Origin: a bacterium
GTDB taxonomy: Bacteria; UBP15; UBA6099; DSWB01
Assembly: GCA_020061125.1 (NCBI GenBank)
Contig: JAGUYV010000111.1
Coordinates: 1-12,484 of the forward strand
Direction of reading: 5' to 3'
Length of the DNA: 12,484 nucleotides
Below are positions 1,892 to 12,321 of the stretch, piece after piece. The translations under genes were made by a program, and so were the position numbers. The notes beneath the pieces are model-generated. The model was given only the letters and a program-made list of their open reading frames with translations, was not told where the DNA came from and did not search any database. Numbering within the stretch: position 1 is the first letter of the stretch; every line of letters begins with the position of its first letter.

Positions 1892-1898
1892 GGAGGTG
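1892..1898 (+). promoter_or_regulatory. Ribosome binding site that fixes the first pilin start at 1905
   Basis: GGAGGTG lies 6 nt before ATG 1905. The alternative GTG start at 1896 sits inside this Shine-Dalgarno sequence and is therefore unlikely. Confidence 0.8.
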
Positions 1899-1904
1899 AA
1901 AACA

Positions 1905-2393
1905 ATGACGGAATACAAGGAACAAAGGGATGAGCGGCAGGAACGCCAGAAAGGTTTTACACTGATTGAACTTATGATCGTTGTTGCCATTATCGCCATT
2001 CTGGCGGCAGTCGCCATTCCGAACTTCCTGCGCGCCAGGGACCGCTCACGCATTAGCGCATGCTTGAGCCAGATGGTGAACATGGGCACGGCCGCACAGG
2101 ACTACATCGTGGAGAAGGGGTCTCTTGCTTCGTTGCCGGGCTGGGAGGATCTTTGCGTGCACATTTACGCCGGCGCAGAGGTGACCACGGACTGTGACAC
2201 CAAACTGGATGCAAAGATCAAAAAAGTTTGTGCGGATGATGGATCCTTTGCATACAACCAGATTGACGATTTCACTTACGAGTTTCAGGCCACAGCCAGG
2301 GACAAAGGAGGCTGCTTTGTGTGCGTGACAGAGAACATGGCAGTCCCCTCGGATGATCGCATCCCCATCTGCGATGAGACTTGCACACATTGA
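1905..2393 (+). CDS. Type IV major pilin-like / GspG-like protein, cysteine-rich (paralogue 1)
   Basis: Structural pilin subunit of 162 residues. It has a long, charged 17-residue leader ending in Gly17, then the class III motif FTLIELMIVVAIIAILAAVAIPNF, with Phe18 as the new N-terminus and the conserved Glu22 as residue 5 of the mature protein. One transmembrane helix covers about residues 18-42 and leads into an amphipathic helix (RARDRSRIS). The globular part carries 8 cysteines, all matched in the next gene. It would be cleaved and N-methylated by the peptidase at 3150-3965 and assembled into the filament from the inner membrane. It has its own strong promoter and terminator, so it is probably monocistronic and highly expressed. 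It could instead be a pseudopilin of a type II secretion system, since the N-terminus does not separate the two. The coding sequence is less GC-rich than the minor pilin genes. Confidence 0.9.
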   Translation: MTEYKEQRDERQERQKGFTLIELMIVVAIIAILAAVAIPNFLRARDRSRISACLSQMVNMGTAAQDYIVEKGSLASLPGWEDLCVHIYAGAEVTTDCDTKLDAKIKKVCADDGSFAYNQIDDFTYEFQATARDKGGCFVCVTENMAVPSDDRIPICDETCTH

Positions 2394-2509: not shown

Positions 2510-2998
2510 ATGGGTTTTGAGAAAAATATGGAAAGAGCGTCAAAAGTTAGAAATTCCCGCGGTTTCACCATGATCGAACTGCTGATCGTGATCGCCATCA
2601 TCGCCATTCTTGCGGCCGTGGCCCTGCCGAACTTCATGCGCGCCAGAGATCGCGCCAGAATTTCTTCATGCCTCGATCAATTGACCAATCTGCGGACAGC
2701 GGCCGAAGATTACATGGTGGAAAAGGGAAGTCTCAAGGAACTGGCCCAGTGGCAGGATCTGTGCGTACACATGTATGCGGGAAAAACCGACCCTGCGGAA
2801 TGCGAGACAACCATCGAAGACAAAATTAACGATGTGTGCAAAAACGGCACATTCAACTGGCACCAGCCCAGTGATTTTTTTTATGAAATCACGGCCAGCG
2901 CCAACAACAAGCACGAGTGCTTCATCTGTTTAACATCGGATGTGACCATTCCAGAGGAGGACGACATTCCGTCCTGTCCAGTGACGGCGTGCCCGTGA
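2510..2998 (+). CDS. Type IV major pilin-like / GspG-like protein, cysteine-rich (paralogue 2)
   Basis: Second filament-type pilin, 162 residues from ATG 2510. A start at ATG 2528 would give a more usual 12-residue leader; neither has a strong Shine-Dalgarno, so the start is open. The leader ends in Gly18, followed by FTMIELLIVIAIIAILAAV with the conserved Glu five residues in, then PNFMRARDRARIS. It aligns end to end with the 1905-2393 product without large gaps: DYMVEKGSL, DLCVHMYAG and CFICLT match DYIVEKGSL, DLCVHIYAG and CFVCVT. All 8 cysteines correspond. The C-terminal thirds diverge most, as expected of exposed surface. A T8 run at 2875-2882 encodes Phe-Phe-Tyr. No convincing terminator follows the stop. 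It is a likely alternative or co-assembled shaft subunit, processed by the peptidase downstream. Confidence 0.9.
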   Translation: MGFEKNMERASKVRNSRGFTMIELLIVIAIIAILAAVALPNFMRARDRARISSCLDQLTNLRTAAEDYMVEKGSLKELAQWQDLCVHMYAGKTDPAECETTIEDKINDVCKNGTFNWHQPSDFFYEITASANNKHECFICLTSDVTIPEEDDIPSCPVTACP

Positions 2999-3081: not shown

Positions 3082-3109
3082 TTCACAAATTGTTCGGATC
3101 GGGTATAAT
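3082..3109 (+). promoter_or_regulatory. Promoter of the pilD-minor pilin operon
   Basis: TTCACA (3082-3087, 5 of 6 consensus) is separated by 16 bp from a perfect TATAAT (3104-3109). Start of transcription would be near 3116, which rules out a translation start at 3090. The flanks are AT-rich. Confidence 0.7.
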
Positions 3110-3149
3110 ACAGTCAGAGGCAACAGGCGGTTATCTGCAATTGTTTGGT

Positions 3150-3965
3150 ATGCCAGACATCTTTTACGGTTTTCTGGGCCTGTTCATCGGGAGTTTCTTG
3201 AACGTATGCATACACCGGATCCCCAGAGAAGAGTCCATAGTGTATCCGCCGTCGCACTGCCCGGAGTGCGGCATGCGTCTGTGCGCGCGGGATCTCGTGC
3301 CGGTGCTTTCGTATCTTGCGCTGGGGCGGCGCTGCCGGGAGTGCTGGAGTCCCATCAGCGCCAAGTACCCGTTCGTGGAACTTCTGGCCGGGGTCGCGTT
3401 CTGGCTTGCGGCCTCGCAATCTGAAAATGAGGTGATGTTGCTAAAAAATTTCATATTTTTGTCCGGCATGATCGTGGTGATATTCACGGATCTGGAGCAC
3501 ATGATCATCCCGGACGCAATTTCGTTGCCGCTGTTGGGCGCGGGCCTTGTGTTTGCGGCCCTGCCCGCAGTTGCGGAATTCGCGGGAATGACCCTGCCCG
3601 CGGCCGTGCCGGGAATCAAGGAATCGGCGCTGGCCGCTGCGGCCGGGTTCGGCGGATTCTACGCCCTGGCCGTCATCGGCGAACTGCTCCTGAAAACCGA
3701 GGCCATGGGCGGCGGCGATATTAAACTGGCGGCGGCCATGGGCGCGTTCCTTGGCTGGCGGCTGCTGTTTCTGGGCCTGTTCCTCGCGTTCCTGTACGGA
3801 TCCGTGATCGGGCTGGCCCTGGTGGCGGCGCGCGGCGGCCGGGCGCGGCAGGCCATTCCGTTCGGGCCGATGATGGCCGCGGGCGGAGTTACGGCCCTGT
3901 TCTTCGCCGAACCCGTTCTGGCCTGGTACGCCGGACTGCTGGACAATCTCTGGAGCATAACATGA
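3150..3965 (+). CDS. pilD: Prepilin peptidase / N-methyltransferase (PilD/GspO family)
   Basis: Inner-membrane aspartic peptidase that cuts prepilin leaders after the conserved Gly and methylates the new N-terminal residue. From ATG 3150 it has 271 residues, normal for the family. It shows GLFIGSFLNVCIHRIP at the start, then a cytoplasmic zinc-type domain with Cys37-x2-Cys40 and Cys62-x2-Cys65, and PVLSY and ISAKYPFVELL. The catalytic aspartates are Asp114 (FTDLEHMIIPD) and Asp190 in GGGDIKL (the G-x-G-D motif), and PFGP lies near the end. Several hydrophobic segments fill the C-terminal two thirds. The longer frame from TTG 3090 begins upstream of the -10 box and is rejected, though a non-ATG start at 3135 or 3141 cannot be excluded because no good Shine-Dalgarno precedes 3150. 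The last codons overlap the next gene by ATGA, indicating translational coupling. The only ACGT in the window (3202-3205) lies in this gene. Confidence 0.96.
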   Translation: MPDIFYGFLGLFIGSFLNVCIHRIPREESIVYPPSHCPECGMRLCARDLVPVLSYLALGRRCRECWSPISAKYPFVELLAGVAFWLAASQSENEVMLLKNFIFLSGMIVVIFTDLEHMIIPDAISLPLLGAGLVFAALPAVAEFAGMTLPAAVPGIKESALAAAAGFGGFYALAVIGELLLKTEAMGGGDIKLAAAMGAFLGWRLLFLGLFLAFLYGSVIGLALVAARGGRARQAIPFGPMMAAGGVTALFFAEPVLAWYAGLLDNLWSIT

Positions 3966-4597
3966 AAATCCGGCTCGAAACACAAACGAATATTTTAAAG
4001 GCGCGGCGCAGGCTCGCGCCCGGCGGCTTCACGCTCATCGAGCTTATGATGGCCATGGTGCTGCTGGTCATCTCACTGTTATTTACTCTGGACCTGGTGG
4101 GCGACGGAATGGGCAAGATGTACGACATGCGTGTGCGGTCCCAGGTCAAGGAATGCGCGCGCCTCACCATGGAGTATTTCTCCACTCTGCCGCCGGATGT
4201 GATTTTCGGCATGTCCAAGCAGACGCAGCAGACCGGCACCTACGCCACCACCACGGGCGACGAAAACCTCGTGAATTTCGTGGTGCAGTCCTATCCCGTT
4301 TGCCGCACCCTGTCCGACCCCTCGAACGCCGTGGGCGCCAAAGTGCAGTTGCGCTATACCATCTGCCCGGGCTGCCTGGCCCACGAAAACCCGGCCTGGG
4401 CCGGATTCATCGTCTGCATTTACAATCTGAAGCTGCGCCTCACTTTCAACAGCGTTATGTACGGCACCCAGAATCAGAACATTGACTATTCCGCCAAGCT
4501 GTATGCGGGCCAGGCCGGGGAATGCGACTCCGCCGTGAACCCGAACGGTTGCGGGTCCGGAACCATGCCGGACCAAATAAGACCTTGTAATATGTAA
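3962..4597 (+). CDS. PilV/GspI-like minor prepilin
   Basis: Minor pilin of 211 residues. It has a long basic 22-residue leader ending in Gly22, then FTLIELMMAMVLLVISLLFTLDLV with the conserved Glu at mature position 5, so one N-terminal membrane helix at about 23-46. The ectodomain has 8 cysteines, including a C-x2-C (CPGC) and a Cys/Gly/Asn-rich tail ending CNM. Assignment to the V/I type rests on position (first after the peptidase, before a W/J-type gene), length and the MMAMV helix; the ectodomain itself is not recognised. It would join the initiating or tip complex with the two following products. The start codon lies in the ATGA overlap with pilD. Confidence 0.82.
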   Translation: MKIRLETQTNILKARRRLAPGGFTLIELMMAMVLLVISLLFTLDLVGDGMGKMYDMRVRSQVKECARLTMEYFSTLPPDVIFGMSKQTQQTGTYATTTGDENLVNFVVQSYPVCRTLSDPSNAVGAKVQLRYTICPGCLAHENPAWAGFIVCIYNLKLRLTFNSVMYGTQNQNIDYSAKLYAGQAGECDSAVNPNGCGSGTMPDQIRPCNM

Positions 4598-4609
4598 ATG
4601 GGGCGGACC

Positions 4610-5425
4610 ATGAAAAAGCATGCAAACCAGAAGGGCATGACGCTGATTGAACTCATGATCGCGTGCGTGATTCTGATTGTGCTATCCACGGCCATCATGG
4701 ATGTGATGCTGCGCACAGCGCAACTTGTGCTGCAGCAGTCGCGGCAGGAAATGGCCGAAACCAGCGGCAAGGCCATTCTCGCGCGCATCGCCGAAGATGT
4801 GCGCATGGCCAAATTCTCCAAAATTTCATTGAGCGCGGGCGCGTTCTGGGATTCGTCCGACATCAGCAACATTTACATCACCAAGGCCGAAAACAAGGAC
4901 CAGTACGCGGTGCCGAGCAACGGCGACAACAACGACGATGTGTCGTGCTATGAGTGGCTGCCGCCCGCGGGCATCTACGGTGAAACCGAAGGCACGGACG
5001 CTTATGTGCCCGGCCGCATCATGGCCGGCACCGACAGCGGCGACAGCCTGTGCGACAACCAGTACAAAAGCATTCTTTCGGACACCAACATAGATGTGCT
5101 GGATTTCCGCATTGATTACTGCCGCCCGGCAAACGGCGTGCCCGGCACATACAGTTGCACGAACAATGTGTCCGAACCGGGCACCATGAGCACGAGTTCG
5201 CAGTGCGTGTGGCTGGTCAAGCTCAACATATCCACCCGCCGATTGCCAACGATAAACACAACGGAAAAGCACCCCATCGCCCAGTACACCACAGCCGTGA
5301 AGCCGCGCAACCTGTATCTCATGGGCCTGGCCACGGACGACGACAAGAACGCGAAAGTGGACTGCTGCGACGCGGGGTTCGTGGGAACGGATGTGACCTG
5401 GTGCCCGCCGCCGACCAAGTTCTGA
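4610..5425 (+). CDS. PilW/GspJ-like minor prepilin
   Basis: Minor pilin of 271 residues from ATG 4610, chosen because GGGGCGG lies just upstream and it gives a compact leader (MKKHANQKG) before MTLIELMIACVILIVLSTAI. An in-frame ATG at 4598, directly after the previous stop, would add four residues (MGRT). Glu is at mature position 5 and Met rather than Phe is at position 1. The segment after the helix (QQSRQEMAETSGKAILARIAEDVRMAKF) is typical of PilW/GspJ, as is the Ser/Asp/Gly-rich beta ectodomain with a late LYLMGLATDDD region. There are 9 cysteines, one in the membrane helix and 8 outside, including a CC pair near the end. Spacing to the previous gene is 12 bp and to the next is 60 bp with no promoter or terminator that I can see, so the giant gene that follows is probably co-transcribed. 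Confidence 0.85.
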   Translation: MKKHANQKGMTLIELMIACVILIVLSTAIMDVMLRTAQLVLQQSRQEMAETSGKAILARIAEDVRMAKFSKISLSAGAFWDSSDISNIYITKAENKDQYAVPSNGDNNDDVSCYEWLPPAGIYGETEGTDAYVPGRIMAGTDSGDSLCDNQYKSILSDTNIDVLDFRIDYCRPANGVPGTYSCTNNVSEPGTMSTSSQCVWLVKLNISTRRLPTINTTEKHPIAQYTTAVKPRNLYLMGLATDDDKNAKVDCCDAGFVGTDVTWCPPPTKF

Positions 5426-5485: not shown

Positions 5486-8400
5486 ATGACAGCGCTGAAA
5501 AAAGCGGACGGAGTCAGGAAGAAACTGCTCTTGTCCCAGGAACAGGGCGCCGCATTTATCCTCGCGGTGGTGGCCTCGGCCGTGCTGCTCATGGTGGGCA
5601 CGGCGTTCGCCATGCTCATCGCCAACGAGAGCCGCGGCCTTGCGCGCGCAACCGCCTATGACCAGGCCCTGTATGTGGCCGAGTCCGGCATTGAGGATGT
5701 GCTGTACCAGCGCGCCAAAAACCAGGGCGACAAGTGCTTCCCGTTCAAAGCCACCACTGTAAATCCCGAAACTGGAGCCACCGAGGATACTCAATTATAC
5801 ACGGGGGCAAACGGCGCGCTCATCAACGGCCCCGGCACCACCTGCGACGGCAACCCGGACACGGACGCGGACCTCACCGACGGCGACAAGGACGACATGC
5901 CCTGCTGGCCGTACAACGAACGCCTTTACGCCAATGTGCTCACCTTCGGCCCGAATTTCTACTGCCACGACGGATCCGACCCCGTGGACTGTCCCTCGTA
6001 TGCGCCCCTTGCCGTGTGGCCCGCCGGGCCGGGAGGCGGCGTGGGCTGGAAGGACATGGAGCCGCAAGGCCCGCCGCTGCCCCTCACCAATATTGCGTCA
6101 AGCTCGGGCAAGCGCTACACCACCGGGTTCTTCACGGTTTGCAACGACGACAGCGTGGGCGACGACCCGGCCACATGGAACTGCCTGTCTCCGCCGTGCA
6201 ACCGCCGCGTGGTGCGCTTCTCTGTGGTGTCCGTGGGCGAGGTGGACACCCGCCCGGGCGAGTCCGTGCAGCGCGCGGTCAAGGTGGACATCATAGACCC
6301 GGCCCTGTACTCGGGCGTCATAGACAAATATGTGGACCTCACCCTGATGTATGAAACGCGCATCAAGGGGCCGATCCACATCAACGGCTGGTGGAACGCG
6401 AACCAGAACGAATACTCGGCCATCCTGGCCCTGCTGGGCGGCACCCTGTCGTTCGCCCCGCTGCTCATGAGCATCTTCAACCCGCCCGACCTTGTGAGCG
6501 TGAGCTTCCCCGAGCCTCCGGGCGGCGACCCGCAGCCCCTCATCACTCTGGGCGGCGTGATCAACTGGGTGCATCTGCCCGTGCGCATTGACATCCCAAG
6601 CGTGAACTGGGACCAGTTTGAAAACCGCATGAAAACGCTTTACAACGACGCCCTGGGGTTCTACTCCAGCGGCGCAACGCGGCTTCTGAAAATGGAAAAC
6701 TACGACCCCGGCAACATGTACAACACCCAGGGCGCCGGGGGCGACGAATTCCCGTGTTCCAGCTCGGCCCAGGCCGACGCCAACGCCGGGCACAACGACA
6801 GTTCGCCGCACAACTGCCGTGACGCCGAGTTCTTCCTGCAATTCTGCGAGAGCGGCAGCGCCACGGCTCAAACCTGCTGCGCGCGCAACGCGGGCGCGGG
6901 CCGCATCCACAACTGCAGCGACGGGCCGTACACGAACTGGAGCAATGTGGCGTTCGACCTGTTCAACTTCAATACCGGCAGCCATGTGACCGGCACCGAA
7001 CCGGGCCACCTGGGCGGCGGCGCAGGGCCGCGCGACCGGTCCTTGCGCTATGTCACGAGCCGCATCTTCGATCTGCACTTCAGCGGCGGCGGATGCGGGT
7101 TCCTCAATCCCTTCGCGTGCCTCACCCGAGACATCACGAGACCGCAGTTCGTGTTCATGGGCCGCCACGAATATTCCGGCAAGGTCTTCATAGACGGCAC
7201 CATGGGCATCGGCACGCGCACGCCGTACCACACCTGCGGGCCGGGCGACGGCACCTTGAGCTTCTGGTGCATCGAGGTCGGACCCTGGAATGTGCTCGGC
7301 ATCACCATCAACTTCGCGTTCGGCGTGCCGCACTGGCACCTGGGTAAGGCCAAGATCACGGGCGAACTGCTTGTGCACGGCAAGCTGTGGATGGCCGACC
7401 ATGTGTACATAGACGGCGGCGCTATCTATGCCGACGACCATGTGATCAAGGACGAGTCCAGCGGCATGGACCTGCGCATCCACATGGGCATGCTGCTCTG
7501 TTTCATTGTCACGGCCATCGCCGGCGGCGGCGGCCCCCTGTGCACGCTTATCTTCCAGGGCACTTTTACGATATTAGGTCTCAATGTTCAAGTGTGGATG
7601 GGCCTGGACGGATTGCTGGCGCTCATCATACCCTGGTGGCCATGGGTTGATCTCACAAACAACGGATTGGTGGACTTCAAGGCCTATCTTGACATAAACG
7701 GGTGGAACACGGCCGGGGTGATCAATTCCGGCACGCTCTACTCGCGAGGCGATGTGTGGGTGATCGAGTCGCCGGGCATGGACATCACGAACATGCTGCT
7801 GAACCTCGTGGTGGGCGGGTTCGCGCCGTTCCTGGACATCACGCCCGCGGTGGACCCGGTGCGTATCTGGAACAACGGCGCCATCGTGGCCAACGGACGC
7901 GAGGTGACCCCGGGTGCGGGCGATTACGACCACGGCAATGTGTACCTGGGCGCGCACCAGCGCCTGGACCTCATGACATACAACCCGGACACCGGCGACC
8001 CGGACACCGGCTTCGTGTTCGCGCGCGGCGCGCTGCAGGTGAACAGCGACATCATTTCGCACTACGGCGGCGGCGGCCTGTTCGACAACTGCAACGGCTG
8101 GATCAGCCTTGACGACGACTGCGCGGCCAACGGCATCTTCTACTCGGGCGGCGTGACCGCCAGCACGCATCCCGACGCGGAGACCAAGATGTTCACCAGC
8201 GAGGGCGGCGGCCTGGACTGGAACGGCGGGATGCAGGAGTACAGCGTGTCCTGCCTGCACTCGGATGAACCCGGTTTCTGGGCCGATATTCTGGGCAACG
8301 CCATGTGCTGGCTGGCCAAAATGCCGACCATCGTGCCGATCGTCAACTGCGGCACCTTGAGCATTGCGGGTGGCAACTGCGACCAGAGCGAGTTCAACAT

Positions 8401-8581
8401 TCAGGGCTACATCTTCGCGGGCCAGGTGGGCGCCATGCCCATGGGCCGCCTGAACCTGCTGCAGGACTCGAGCGTGCTGCACAAGGCCGTGACGCGCCGC
8501 TACTACCGCAGCCTCGTGGGCACGCCCATTGACTGGATGGAAATCGAACCACCCGCAAATGTGCCGCGCCTCTCTCCGTAA
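5486..8581 (+). CDS. Giant PilX/GspK-like minor prepilin with cysteine-rich beta-structured ectodomain (copy 1)
   Basis: Protein of 1031 residues, against roughly 150-350 for usual PilX or GspK. AGGGGAG (5473-5479) lies 6 nt before the ATG. The 21-residue leader ends in Gly21, then a hydrophobic helix at 22-46 (AAFILAVVASAVLLMVGTAF) with no Glu at mature position 5, as in GspK and PilX. DQALYVAESGIEDVLYQRAKNQ at about 59-80 is the PilX N-terminal signature. Ectodomain: a Cys-flanked acidic loop (121-137, between Cys120 and Cys140) that resembles a calcium-binding loop; a beta-rich domain to about 300 with VQRAVKVDIIDPA; hydrophobic patches at 311-333 and 667-720; Gly-rich short beta repeats at about 555-660, 740-890 and 965-1000 that could form a beta-helix; and a C-terminus ending PIDWMEIEPPANVPRL. 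There are 26 cysteines. A tip adhesin or sensor role is inference. It probably shares the transcript starting before pilD and ends at a strong terminator. Confidence 0.88.
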   Translation: MTALKKADGVRKKLLLSQEQGAAFILAVVASAVLLMVGTAFAMLIANESRGLARATAYDQALYVAESGIEDVLYQRAKNQGDKCFPFKATTVNPETGATEDTQLYTGANGALINGPGTTCDGNPDTDADLTDGDKDDMPCWPYNERLYANVLTFGPNFYCHDGSDPVDCPSYAPLAVWPAGPGGGVGWKDMEPQGPPLPLTNIASSSGKRYTTGFFTVCNDDSVGDDPATWNCLSPPCNRRVVRFSVVSVGEVDTRPGESVQRAVKVDIIDPALYSGVIDKYVDLTLMYETRIKGPIHINGWWNANQNEYSAILALLGGTLSFAPLLMSIFNPPDLVSVSFPEPPGGDPQPLITLGGVINWVHLPVRIDIPSVNWDQFENRMKTLYNDALGFYSSGATRLLKMENYDPGNMYNTQGAGGDEFPCSSSAQADANAGHNDSSPHNCRDAEFFLQFCESGSATAQTCCARNAGAGRIHNCSDGPYTNWSNVAFDLFNFNTGSHVTGTEPGHLGGGAGPRDRSLRYVTSRIFDLHFSGGGCGFLNPFACLTRDITRPQFVFMGRHEYSGKVFIDGTMGIGTRTPYHTCGPGDGTLSFWCIEVGPWNVLGITINFAFGVPHWHLGKAKITGELLVHGKLWMADHVYIDGGAIYADDHVIKDESSGMDLRIHMGMLLCFIVTAIAGGGGPLCTLIFQGTFTILGLNVQVWMGLDGLLALIIPWWPWVDLTNNGLVDFKAYLDINGWNTAGVINSGTLYSRGDVWVIESPGMDITNMLLNLVVGGFAPFLDITPAVDPVRIWNNGAIVANGREVTPGAGDYDHGNVYLGAHQRLDLMTYNPDTGDPDTGFVFARGALQVNSDIISHYGGGGLFDNCNGWISLDDDCAANGIFYSGGVTASTHPDAETKMFTSEGGGLDWNGGMQEYSVSCLHSDEPGFWADILGNAMCWLAKMPTIVPIVNCGTLSIAGGNCDQSEFNIQGYIFAGQVGAMPMGRLNLLQDSSVLHKAVTRRYYRSLVGTPIDWMEIEPPANVPRLSP

Positions 8582-8622
8582 TCCGGGCGCGCATGAAAAC
8601 TCAATGTCCCAATGAATTTCAG

Positions 8623-8656
8623 GCCCCCGCCGCTGTTCCCAGGGCGGGGGCTTTTT
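8623..8656 (+). terminator. Rho-independent terminator after giant gene copy 1
   Basis: A perfect 9-bp GC stem, GCCCCCGCC (8623-8631) with GGCGGGGGC (8643-8651), encloses an 11-nt loop and is followed by TTTTT (8652-8656). Confidence 0.92.
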
Positions 8657-8657
8657 C

Positions 8658-8705
8658 TTAAATAAATGTAATAAAACCATATAAACTTCCGTTCGCAATA
8701 TATGG
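8658..8705 (+). promoter_or_regulatory. Possible promoter and operator-like dyad upstream of giant gene copy 2
   Basis: TATAAA (8680-8685) with a weak -35 TTAAAT (8658-8663) at 16-bp spacing. A 7-bp dyad, CCATATA (8677-8683) and TATATGG (8699-8705), with a 15-nt spacer overlaps the -10, so it could be a regulator site. Both calls are tentative. Confidence 0.4.
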
Positions 8706-8712
8706 GACGGAG

Positions 8713-8841
8713 GGGGTGTTGAAAGAGCCAAGCGGCCGCAAAAAGCAGGTACAGGCACGCGGAAAAACGCCGCGTTCCCAGTCCCTGTTTTTTGCTGCAT
8801 TTGCGTTTTGACCCCAGCATTTAAAGGTTTTCAACAGCCCC
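8713..8841. repeat. 129-bp nested inverted repeat / long hairpin
   Basis: Three successive stems are nested around one centre. Outer: GGGGTGTTGAAA (8713-8724) with 8829-8841, 12 pairs and one bulged G at 8837. Middle: GCAAAAAGCAGG (8738-8749) with CCTGTTTTTTGC (8784-8795), 12 pairs including one G-U. Inner: ACGCGG (8757-8762) with CCGCGT (8770-8775), 7-nt loop. It lies in the leader of giant gene copy 2. It could be a structured 5' UTR, a small RNA or a miniature mobile element; no target duplication is clear. Confidence 0.7.
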
Positions 8842-8904
8842 AAGGAGCGGATGGCCTGCAATGTCCGCGGCAACCCCCGGCATTACGCATACGGGAGGCG
8901 TCAC

Positions 8905-11900
8905 ATGAAACTCCTGCTCCGGCGCGTACGGGCCGCGGCCGCAAACCAGAGCGGCGCCGCCTTTGTGCTCGCCATTCTTGCGTCAGCGGTTCTGCTCATG
9001 CTTGGCTCCGCCTTTGCATTGCTTGTCGGCAATGAACTGCGCGCGCTCCAGCGCATGACCGCCCACGACCAGGCCCTGTATGTGGCCGAGTCCGGCATCG
9101 AGGATTTACTGTATCAGCGCGCCAAAAACCAGAGCGACAAGTGCTTCCCGTTCACGGACGACGGCACGCTCTCGGGCGCGGCCGGCGCAGTCGTCAACGG
9201 AAGCGCCGCCACCTGCGACGGCGATCCGGATACGGACGCGGACCTCACGGACCTGGACAAGGACGACATTCCGTGCTGGCCCTACAACGAGCGCCTGTAC
9301 GCCAATGTGCTCACCTTCGGCCCGAATTTCTACTGCCACGACGGGTCCGACCCTGTGGACTGCCCGTCGTATGCGCCCCTTGCCGTGTGGCCCGCGGGAC
9401 CCTCGGGCGGCGTGGGCTGGAAGGACATGGAGCCGGACAGGCCCGCGCCCCTGCCCAGCGCCGCGGCAAGCTCGGGCAAGCGCTACACTACGGGGTTTTT
9501 CACCGTGTGCAACGACGACAGCGCGGGCGACGACCCCACCACCTGGAACTGCCTGTCTCCGCCATGCAACCGCCGCGTCATGCGGTTCTCGTTCGTGTCC
9601 GTGGGCGAGGTGGATGTGCGCCCCGGCCGCCCGGTGCAGCGCGCGGTCAAGGTGGACATCATTGACCCGGCCCTGTACACAGGCGTGATTGACAAGTATG
9701 TGGACCTGACCCTGATGTACGAAGCGCGCATCAAGGGGCCGATCCACATCAACGGCTGGTGGAACGCGAACCAGAACGAATACTCGGCCATCCTGGTGAT
9801 GCTGGGCGGCACCCTGTCCTTCGTGCCCCTGATCATGAGCATCTTCAACCCGCCAGACCTGGTGAGCGTGAGCTTCCCCGAGCCGCCGGGCGGCGATCCG
9901 CAGCCCTTGCTCGCGCTGGGCGGATACATCAACTGGGTCCATCTGCCCGTGCGCCTCGACATTCCAAGCGTGAACTGGGACCAGTTCGAAGGACGGATGG
10001 AAACCCTGTACAACGACGCTCTGGATTTCTACGACAGCGGCCAGGTGCGGTTGCTGAAAATGGAAAACTACAACCCCGGCAATATGTACAACACCCAGGG
10101 CGCCGGGGGCGACGAATTCCCGTGCGCCAGCTCGCCGCAAGCCGACGCCAACGCGGGATTCCACGACGCCTCGCCCCACAACTGCAAGGACGCGGAGTTC
10201 TCCCTGGAATTCTGCGAAAGCGGCAGCGCCACGGACCAGACCTGCTGCGCGCGCAACGCCGGGCCGGGCCGCATCCACAACTGCCGCAGCGACGGCTACC
10301 AGACCTGGAGCAATGTGGCCTTCGATTTGTTCAACTTCAACACTGGCAGCCATGTTACCGGAACCGAACCCGCGCGTCTGGGCGGCAACCCCGGCCCGCG
10401 CGATAAATCCCTGCGCTATGTCACGGCACGCATCTTCGACCTGCATTTCAGCGGCGGCGGCTGCGCCTTCACAAACCCCTTCGCATGCCTCACGCGCGAC
10501 ATCAACCGCCCGCAGTTCGTGTTCATGGGCCGCCACGAATACACGGGCAAGGTGTTCATAGATGGAACCATGGGCATCGGCACGCGCACGCCATACCACA
10601 CCTGCGGAACCGGCGACCCCACATTGAGCCTGTGGTGCATCGAGCTCGGCCCCTGGTCCGTTCTCGGCGTGACCATCAATTTCGCGTTCGGCGTGCCTCA
10701 CTGGCATCTGGGAAAAGCGCACATCACAGGCGAAGTGCTGGCTCACGGCAAGCTGTACATGGCCGACCACATTTACATAGACGGCGGCGCGATCTACGCC
10801 GACGACCATGTGATCAAGGACGAGTCCAGCGGCATGGATTTGAGCATCCATCTGGGCATGCTCCTGTGCTGGATCCTCTCCGGCGGTTCGGGTTCGCCCA
10901 TGTGCACGCTCATCTTCCAGGGCTATTTCACTCTGCTCGGACTTAATGTGTACATCTGGCCCGGCCTGGACGGAATCCTGTCCATCATGTTCCCGTGGTG
11001 GCCGTGGGTGAACCTCACAAACAACGGGCTGGTGGATTTCAAGGCGTATCTGGACATAGACGGATGGAACACGGCCGGGATCGAGAATGCCGGAACGCTT
11101 TACACGCGGGGCGATGTGTGGGTCATCGAATCGCCGGGCGTGGACATCACCAATATGCTGCTGAATCTGGTGGTGGGCGGGTTCGCGCCATTTCTCGACA
11201 TCACGCCCGCGGTGGACCCGGTGCGCATCTGGAACAACGGCGCCATCGTGGCAGGCGGCAGCGAGGTGAACCCGGGAACGGGCGACTACCGGCACGGCAA
11301 TGTGTACCTGGGCCAGCACCGGCGGCTCGACCTCATGACCTACAACCCCGGCGAACACGGCCCGCAGGGGCCGGACACGGGCTTCGTGTTCGCGCGCGGC
11401 GCACTACAGGTGCACAGCGACATCATCTCGCACTACGGAGGCGCGGGCCTGTTCGAAAGCTGCAACGGGTGGGTCAGCCTGGACGACGACTGCGCGGCTA
11501 ACGGCATTTTCTACTCCGGCGGCGTCACGGGCAGCACGCTTCCCGAGGCCGACACCAAAATGTTCACCAGTTCGGGCGGCGGCCTGGAATGGAACGGAGG
11601 ATTTCAGGAATACAAGGTATCGTGCCGCCATTATGATGAACCCGATTTTTGGGGCGATTTGTTGTCTGGCACCGGCGATGTGGGATGCTGGGTTAAGGAA
11701 GCGCCCCCCATTGTGCCCATTTTCAACTGCGGCACATTCAATGACGGCAACTGCGACCAGAGCGAATTCAATATCCGGGGTTATGTGTTTGCGGGTCAGG
11801 TGGGCGGCATGCCCATGGTGCGCATGAATCTGTTGCAGGATCCGAGCGTTCTGCACAAGGCCGTGACGCGCCGCTACTACCGCAGCCTGGTGGGCACGCC

Positions 11901-11949
11901 CATTGACTGGATGGAGATCGAGCCTCCGGCCAATCTGCCGCGCCTGTGA
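8905..11949 (+). CDS. Giant PilX/GspK-like minor prepilin with cysteine-rich beta-structured ectodomain (copy 2)
   Basis: Tandem paralogue of the 5486-8581 product, 1014 residues from ATG 8905. This start is preferred because GGGAGG (8893-8898) lies 6 nt before it and gives a basic leader (MKLLLRRVRAAAANQSG). ATG 8851, also preceded by AAGGAG, would add 18 residues. The cleavage site Gly17 is followed by AAFVLAILASAVLLMLGSAF, again without Glu at position 5, then the same DQALYVAESGIEDLLYQRAKNQ signature. The acidic loop lies between Cys104 and Cys124, with the same 20-residue spacing as copy 1. All 26 cysteines of copy 1 are retained. The hydrophobic patches and Gly-rich beta repeats are kept with substitutions, and the region after LLCW is shorter and different. 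It has its own upstream region behind the copy 1 terminator, so the two copies may be regulated independently. No + strand T-tract terminator follows; the hairpin at 11993-12008 may serve both strands. Confidence 0.88.
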   Translation: MKLLLRRVRAAAANQSGAAFVLAILASAVLLMLGSAFALLVGNELRALQRMTAHDQALYVAESGIEDLLYQRAKNQSDKCFPFTDDGTLSGAAGAVVNGSAATCDGDPDTDADLTDLDKDDIPCWPYNERLYANVLTFGPNFYCHDGSDPVDCPSYAPLAVWPAGPSGGVGWKDMEPDRPAPLPSAAASSGKRYTTGFFTVCNDDSAGDDPTTWNCLSPPCNRRVMRFSFVSVGEVDVRPGRPVQRAVKVDIIDPALYTGVIDKYVDLTLMYEARIKGPIHINGWWNANQNEYSAILVMLGGTLSFVPLIMSIFNPPDLVSVSFPEPPGGDPQPLLALGGYINWVHLPVRLDIPSVNWDQFEGRMETLYNDALDFYDSGQVRLLKMENYNPGNMYNTQGAGGDEFPCASSPQADANAGFHDASPHNCKDAEFSLEFCESGSATDQTCCARNAGPGRIHNCRSDGYQTWSNVAFDLFNFNTGSHVTGTEPARLGGNPGPRDKSLRYVTARIFDLHFSGGGCAFTNPFACLTRDINRPQFVFMGRHEYTGKVFIDGTMGIGTRTPYHTCGTGDPTLSLWCIELGPWSVLGVTINFAFGVPHWHLGKAHITGEVLAHGKLYMADHIYIDGGAIYADDHVIKDESSGMDLSIHLGMLLCWILSGGSGSPMCTLIFQGYFTLLGLNVYIWPGLDGILSIMFPWWPWVNLTNNGLVDFKAYLDIDGWNTAGIENAGTLYTRGDVWVIESPGVDITNMLLNLVVGGFAPFLDITPAVDPVRIWNNGAIVAGGSEVNPGTGDYRHGNVYLGQHRRLDLMTYNPGEHGPQGPDTGFVFARGALQVHSDIISHYGGAGLFESCNGWVSLDDDCAANGIFYSGGVTGSTLPEADTKMFTSSGGGLEWNGGFQEYKVSCRHYDEPDFWGDLLSGTGDVGCWVKEAPPIVPIFNCGTFNDGNCDQSEFNIRGYVFAGQVGGMPMVRMNLLQDPSVLHKAVTRRYYRSLVGTPIDWMEIEPPANLPRL

Positions 11950-12045: not shown

Positions 12046-12213
12046 TCACTTGGACAGGCGCTCGATGATGTCCCGGTCCTGCACTTCCCAGCAGTGCTGC
12101 GCGGACAGGTAGCCCGAGTCGTTCACGCCCAGGTCGCAAATGTATTTTGCTCCGTTATCGTCCACCATCACGCTGTAGGGTTTTTTCTCGTCGAAAATGA
12201 TGTTCGCTTTCAT
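12046..12213 (-). CDS. Small conserved-looking protein of unknown function (55 aa)
   Basis: A 55-residue acidic protein, MKANIIFDEKKPYSV..., with two cysteines (CDLG and HCWEV) and no signal peptide or membrane segment, so probably cytoplasmic. I do not recognise the family. That it is a real gene is supported by an excellent GGAGGTG 6 nt before the ATG at 12213, the same arrangement as the first pilin, by a terminator shortly after the stop, and by a plausible promoter at 12294-12321. The frame could extend 36 codons upstream to 12321, but that would read through the Shine-Dalgarno and the -10, so the short start is right. It is convergent to the giant gene. No role in the pilus is shown. 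Confidence 0.8.
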   Translation of the reverse strand: MKANIIFDEKKPYSVMVDDNGAKYICDLGVNDSGYLSAQHCWEVQDRDIIERLSK

Positions 12214-12293
12214 AATGTTCACCTCCGCCGTGCGGTATTTTCCGGTTGTTACATAACAGGAACACCTTAACTGGTAAATAAGTTCCACATTAC

Positions 12294-12321
12294 ATAATAA
12301 TGTGTGCGGCGCGGAGATCAA
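12294..12321 (-). promoter_or_regulatory. Probable promoter of the 55-aa gene
   Basis: On the minus strand TTGATC (12321-12316) is followed after 16 bp by TATTAT (12299-12294). A 7-bp hairpin, CACATTA (12286-12292) with TAATGTG (12298-12304), overlaps the -10 and could be an operator. The leader would be about 70 nt. Confidence 0.5.

Follow-up and report, generated by a model that had tools for sequence, protein, structure and literature searches.

Two tandem genes in the window, which is one whole contig of 12,484 bp (G000:C448), encode giant PilX-like prepilins. These proteins may be lineage-specific modular tip pilins that, in a retractable type IVa pilus (T4aP), take the tip-cap position of PilX/GspK and serve adhesion or recognition in place of PilY1, a reading to which we give about an even chance of being right. 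The source MAG (G000) has a size of 4.1 Mb and is 79% complete; the other six genomes of the order are labelled G001-G006. The features of the pilin operon are as follows.

1896..2393, + strand: PilA-like pilin 1, 165 aa, Glu5 present (PF07963, E=2.3e-10)
2510..2998, + strand: PilA-like pilin 2, 162 aa (PF07963, E=2e-9)
3090..3965, + strand: prepilin peptidase (PilD) (PF06750, E=2.5e-31; PF01478, E=4.9e-19)
3962..4597, + strand: minor pilin 1, PilV-position, 211 aa, Glu5 present (PF07963, E=1.4e-4)
4598..5425, + strand: minor pilin 2, PilW-position, 275 aa, Glu5 present (PF07963, E=4.8e-7)
5486..8581, + strand: giant PilX-like prepilin A, 1031 aa
8621..8657, + strand: terminator-like G+C-rich hairpin with TTTTT after it, in the A-B spacer (from folding)
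8851..11949, + strand: giant PilX-like prepilin B, 1032 aa, tandem copy of A

The two open reading frames of more than 1000 residues that a sequence-only reading had placed in 5486-11949 were confirmed in coordinates and length, at 5486-8581 and 8851-11949; giant B could start equally well at a downstream ATG (8905), which has a GGGAGG of its own. The two proteins, which are 82% identical, both carry QALYVAESGIED and have prepilin-peptidase-type leaders (QEQG/AAFILAVV in A and NQSG/AAFVLAIL in B). Giant A consists of the leader (residues 1-20), a hydrophobic helix (residues ~21-75) and an ectodomain of ~950 aa that is specific to the order. In mature A and B, position 5 is occupied by Leu instead of Glu, and an alignment check found Glu5 missing in 9/9 members of the giant family. 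The PilX N-terminal signature and the helix lacking Glu5 that had been read in A and B were both upheld.

In the Pfam search, two full-length or near full-length homologues exceeded the curated cut-off of PilX_N (PF14341; 26.8 and 26.1 versus 25.5 bits), and 7/9 giant-family members matched it at E<=1. The window copies A and B had no PilX_N match at E<=1 and were counted as PilX_N members since they align end to end, with E below 1e-195, with the homologues that pass the cut-off. PilX_N and one weak DUF3704 match were the sole Pfam hits among the nine members, none of which matched T2SSK (PF03934); the giants themselves had no match to PF05567, the PilY1 β-propeller, and A and B none to N_methyl in Pfam. 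Together with the place of the genes, the sequence features support the assignment of the giants as T4aP prepilins in the PilX/GspK position.

The top NCBIfam match of pilin 1 (1896..2393) was the Myxococcus PilA, under the cut-off of that model, and pilin 2 was 51% identical to pilin 1 in pairwise alignment. The giants had been placed after V- and W-type genes, and they do follow two minor pilins, but the names V and W come from position: minor pilin 1 (3962..4597) was classed by position only, and the matches to TIGR02523 (PilV) were weak, with E=0.0012 for 4598-5425 and 0.11 for 3962-4597. No clear GspH/FimU candidate was found among the window genes, in agreement with the earlier reading. 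The A-B spacer folded with -33 kcal/mol over 90 nt, and the hairpin at 8621-8657 suggests that B is perhaps transcribed separately from A; the total count of terminator-like sites in the window was not above that of shuffles. Upstream of the pilin operon, positions 2-1336 hold a gene, truncated at its 5' end, for a protein of glycoside hydrolase family 2 (PF02836, E=2.7e-40). Convergent with giant B lies a 91-aa open reading frame at 12046-12321 on the minus strand, for which Pfam and NCBIfam searches gave no match.

When 145 genomes were searched at the protein level, giant homologues, full-length or as fragments, turned up in 6/6 of the other genomes of the order, so that all seven have a giant. 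The full-length homologues were about 45-49% identical, the giants of G005 and G006 were fragments, and across the seven genomes the giants sit after the same genes wherever the contig permits. The dN/dS between copies was 0.21 for A and B and 0.13 and 0.17 for the pairs of G002 and G004, and the giant copies are thus under purifying selection. These values and the homologues across the order show that A and B are real genes and not chance reading frames. Tandem pairs were present in G002, G003 and G004, and a single gene in G001; the giant heads were conserved over three families and tandem in two of them. In the tree, full support joined A with B and, in the other family (f3), all copies but that of G001. 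The simplest reading of this tree would be two separate tandem duplications in two families; gene conversion within each lineage is a possible alternative. In G006 (L030:326-3585), a stop divides the giant into an N-terminal part like the first copy and a C-terminal part like the second; this is probably an assembly collapse of a tandem pair. The nearest genomes outside the order share just the domain rank with it, and the order may thus be the only one in a candidate phylum.

PilY1 was not found in the window by Pfam, as had been noted before, and the PF05567 profile matched 0/7 genomes of the order. The first PF05567 search of the seven genomes lacked a positive control, which was supplied by a repeat over 193 genomes; since 32 other genomes matched in that same search, the absence of PilY1 from the order is supported at the sensitivity of PF05567, in genomes of which three are 92-97% complete. 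Nor do the relatives give a sign of a pilY1 just beyond the window: their operon goes on into the pilMNOPQ genes with no pilY1, and in G001 unrelated genes come after the giant.

Tip position and adhesion by the giants are what we infer from established T4P biology. In T4F, the subunit that caps the tip lacks Glu5 (PMC10191384). We propose that, because Glu5 is missing, the giant would enter the V/W priming complex first and would thereby remain at the pilus tip. The ~950-residue acidic, cysteine-rich ectodomain would then be exposed at the tip outside the cell as an adhesion or ligand-recognition module, which is the role of PilY1 elsewhere, and the tandem copies would permit a tip of two parts, or specificity for two ligands. 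If this holds, the system would be a natural diderm T4aP working without PilY1, in which the capacity of a tip-cap pilin by itself for priming, adhesion and retraction signalling becomes testable. The wider statement, that a whole lineage of candidate-phylum level has a T4aP where a giant tip pilin with a new adhesive fold of ~950 residues took the place of PilY1, with a two-subunit tip after independent tandem duplications, is offered more tentatively.

An unlikely alternative is that the giant is a structural tip cap only, which primes assembly while a divergent or unrecognised non-pilin protein adheres. GspK-type subunits do act in assembly independently of adhesion (PMC10191384), and a strongly divergent PilY1 could escape PF05567, which spans only the β-propeller of PilY1. 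Against this, a head of ~950 residues that is kept in three families and duplicated in two would be costly for priming alone.

The ectodomain had no match in Pfam, NCBIfam, PHROGs or PDB sequences, and no homologue of the giants was found in viral contigs. When the giant-family profile was searched against 386 genomes, the N-terminal 70-160 positions alone matched outside the order. The ectodomain is acidic (pI 4.5-4.7, with D+E about 2x K+R) and rich in cysteines, of which each of the four proteins counted had 23-29, many of them invariant. Cysteine pairs such as 424/444 and 160/169 were gained or lost jointly across the family, and these joint changes suggest disulfides and an extracytoplasmic fold. 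The stretches near 313-331 and 671-714 had the hydrophobicity of weak membrane segments, which is odd for a pilin head. AlphaFold2 with the nine-sequence alignment gave a mean pLDDT of 26 for full-length A and 34.8 for residues 541-870; these low-confidence models, with runs of short strands and a helical insert, were not taken as evidence of a fold, and one Foldseek run on the 541-870 model returned nothing meaningful above noise. Internal repeats in the giants were not significant in a profile search. A DxDxD-like acidic loop at residues ~122-137 of A and B was considered as a calcium site and rejected, as the relatives do not conserve it. Nor did the giants match a profile built from PilX C-termini. 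A short W-x-E near the C-terminus was common to the giants and 8/15 complete PilX_N proteins against a background of 7.9%, and as a shared PilX C-terminal feature it is suggestive at most. The giants define an uncharacterised ectodomain family for structure determination.

The giants resemble PilX/GspK of Gram-negative T4aP and T2SS in their operon place after the minor pilins, the PilX_N signature and the lack of Glu5, and differ from them in that the partner PilY1 is undetected here and the head is several times longer (PMC7541494, PMC10191384). Their length had been put at three to six times the usual, which stands in comparison with classical PilX but not with PilX_N proteins at large: outside the order, the 193 diverse genomes gave 84 PilX_N matches with a median open frame of 465 aa, of which eight were at least 800 aa and three >1000 aa. 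Giant prepilin-like proteins of 1018-1572 aa were seen in three other genomes, at L119:2710-7428 (minus strand), L120:1985-6259 (plus strand) and L164:2041-5094 (minus strand). Some of the PilX_N proteins outside the order carry recognisable modules: in L120 a lamin-tail domain was found together with a C-terminus of helix-hairpin-helix/T2SSK-like type, and in L119 the lamin-tail match was below threshold. The L164 protein was read by eye. An 822-aa protein at L125:4740-7208 (minus strand) in the unrelated genome G111 combines a PilX_N helix with FG-GAP repeats and is possibly a natural pilin-propeller fusion. DUF7305 (PF23981) proteins share with the giants the PilX_N helix and a long head, with a profile-profile match over the first 60 residues. 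An identity of the giants with DUF7305-type PilX proteins was rejected: past the N-terminal helix the profile-profile comparison gave no match, with scores not above those of reversed controls, and DUF7305 was found in 0/7 genomes of the order and in 19 others.

Modular pilins, in which an extra functional module is fused to a pilin module, comprise >1,200 proteins in 264 architectures (PMC8179133). In the giants, a pilin helix is followed by ~950 residues that may be such a module. In the T4aP of Streptococcus sanguinis, the modular adhesive pilins PilB and PilC replace PilHIJK (PMC8179133, PMC9934059). The giants are like PilB and PilC in joining a bulky extra part to a pilin module. The modules of S. 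sanguinis are recognisable (vWA, lectin) and occur with the IPR012902 motif, whereas in the giants no known domain and no N_methyl match were found; an IPR012902-keyed survey would therefore miss them, and N_methyl-based surveys of modular pilins overlook large tip pilins without Glu5.

The main specific functional rival to adhesion is DNA uptake, in which the giant would cap the tip and bind DNA for natural transformation rather than surfaces; we consider it less probable than the structural cap. ComZ of Thermus thermophilus is a large GspK-like pilin proposed at the tip, with an inserted β-solenoid that binds DNA (PMC6561018). Like ComZ, the giants are large GspK-like prepilins encoded among minor-pilin genes, carry a big extracellular insert and have a proposed role as tip cap. 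The ComZ solenoid module is ~380 residues long and its structure has been solved (PMC6561018), whereas the ectodomain of the giants is ~950 residues long, acidic and present in tandem copies. ComEC (PF03772) was present in 5/7 genomes of the order, including all three that are >90% complete, but it is widespread, with 10/14 among control genomes, and sequence searches matched the giants to no PDB chain, ComZ included. The acidity of the ectodomain is a mild counter-argument, although ComZ too is without a clear positive patch. With the long PilX_N frames, the modular pilins and ComZ as precedents, the giants extend a known kind. The ectodomain matched no characterised long PilX family, but the earlier description as a candidate undescribed pilus tip system goes too far, as the machine is an ordinary T4aP and large modular tip pilins have been described before (PMC6561018, PMC8179133).

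The machine is an ordinary retractable type IVa pilus, since the operon runs on into the pilMNOPQ genes in three relatives. The order in G002 and G004 was pilT, pilC, two pilins, prepilin peptidase, two minor pilins, two giants, pilM, pilN and pilO; in G004 pilP and a secretin gene continue after pilO, and the downstream part of the operon in G006 was as in G002 and G004. The pilM-to-pilQ set has a separate locus in G000 and in G001. PilT (TIGR01420, 500-520 bits) and PilM (TIGR01175, 238 bits) were over their cut-offs, the PilC-like protein at 444 bits was below its 700-bit cut-off, and PilN, PilO and PilP were assigned from gene order and size. A secretin homologue was present in 7/7 genomes of the order, as were abundant T2SSE ATPases (PilB/PilT-type). 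A T2SS-like secretion pseudopilus with the giant as a GspK-like substrate-recognition subunit is very improbable: the G000 secretin did score 218 bits against GspD and 115 against PilQ, both below cut-off, but a T4aP is indicated by the PilT and PilM scores above their cut-offs, by M-N-O-P-Q as separate genes and by major pilins of PilA-like type, and the giants lack a T2SSK domain. The same genome has a second secretin-like gene (L140, G000:C445) with a T2SSE-type ATPase nearby, which possibly belongs to a Tad-like system.
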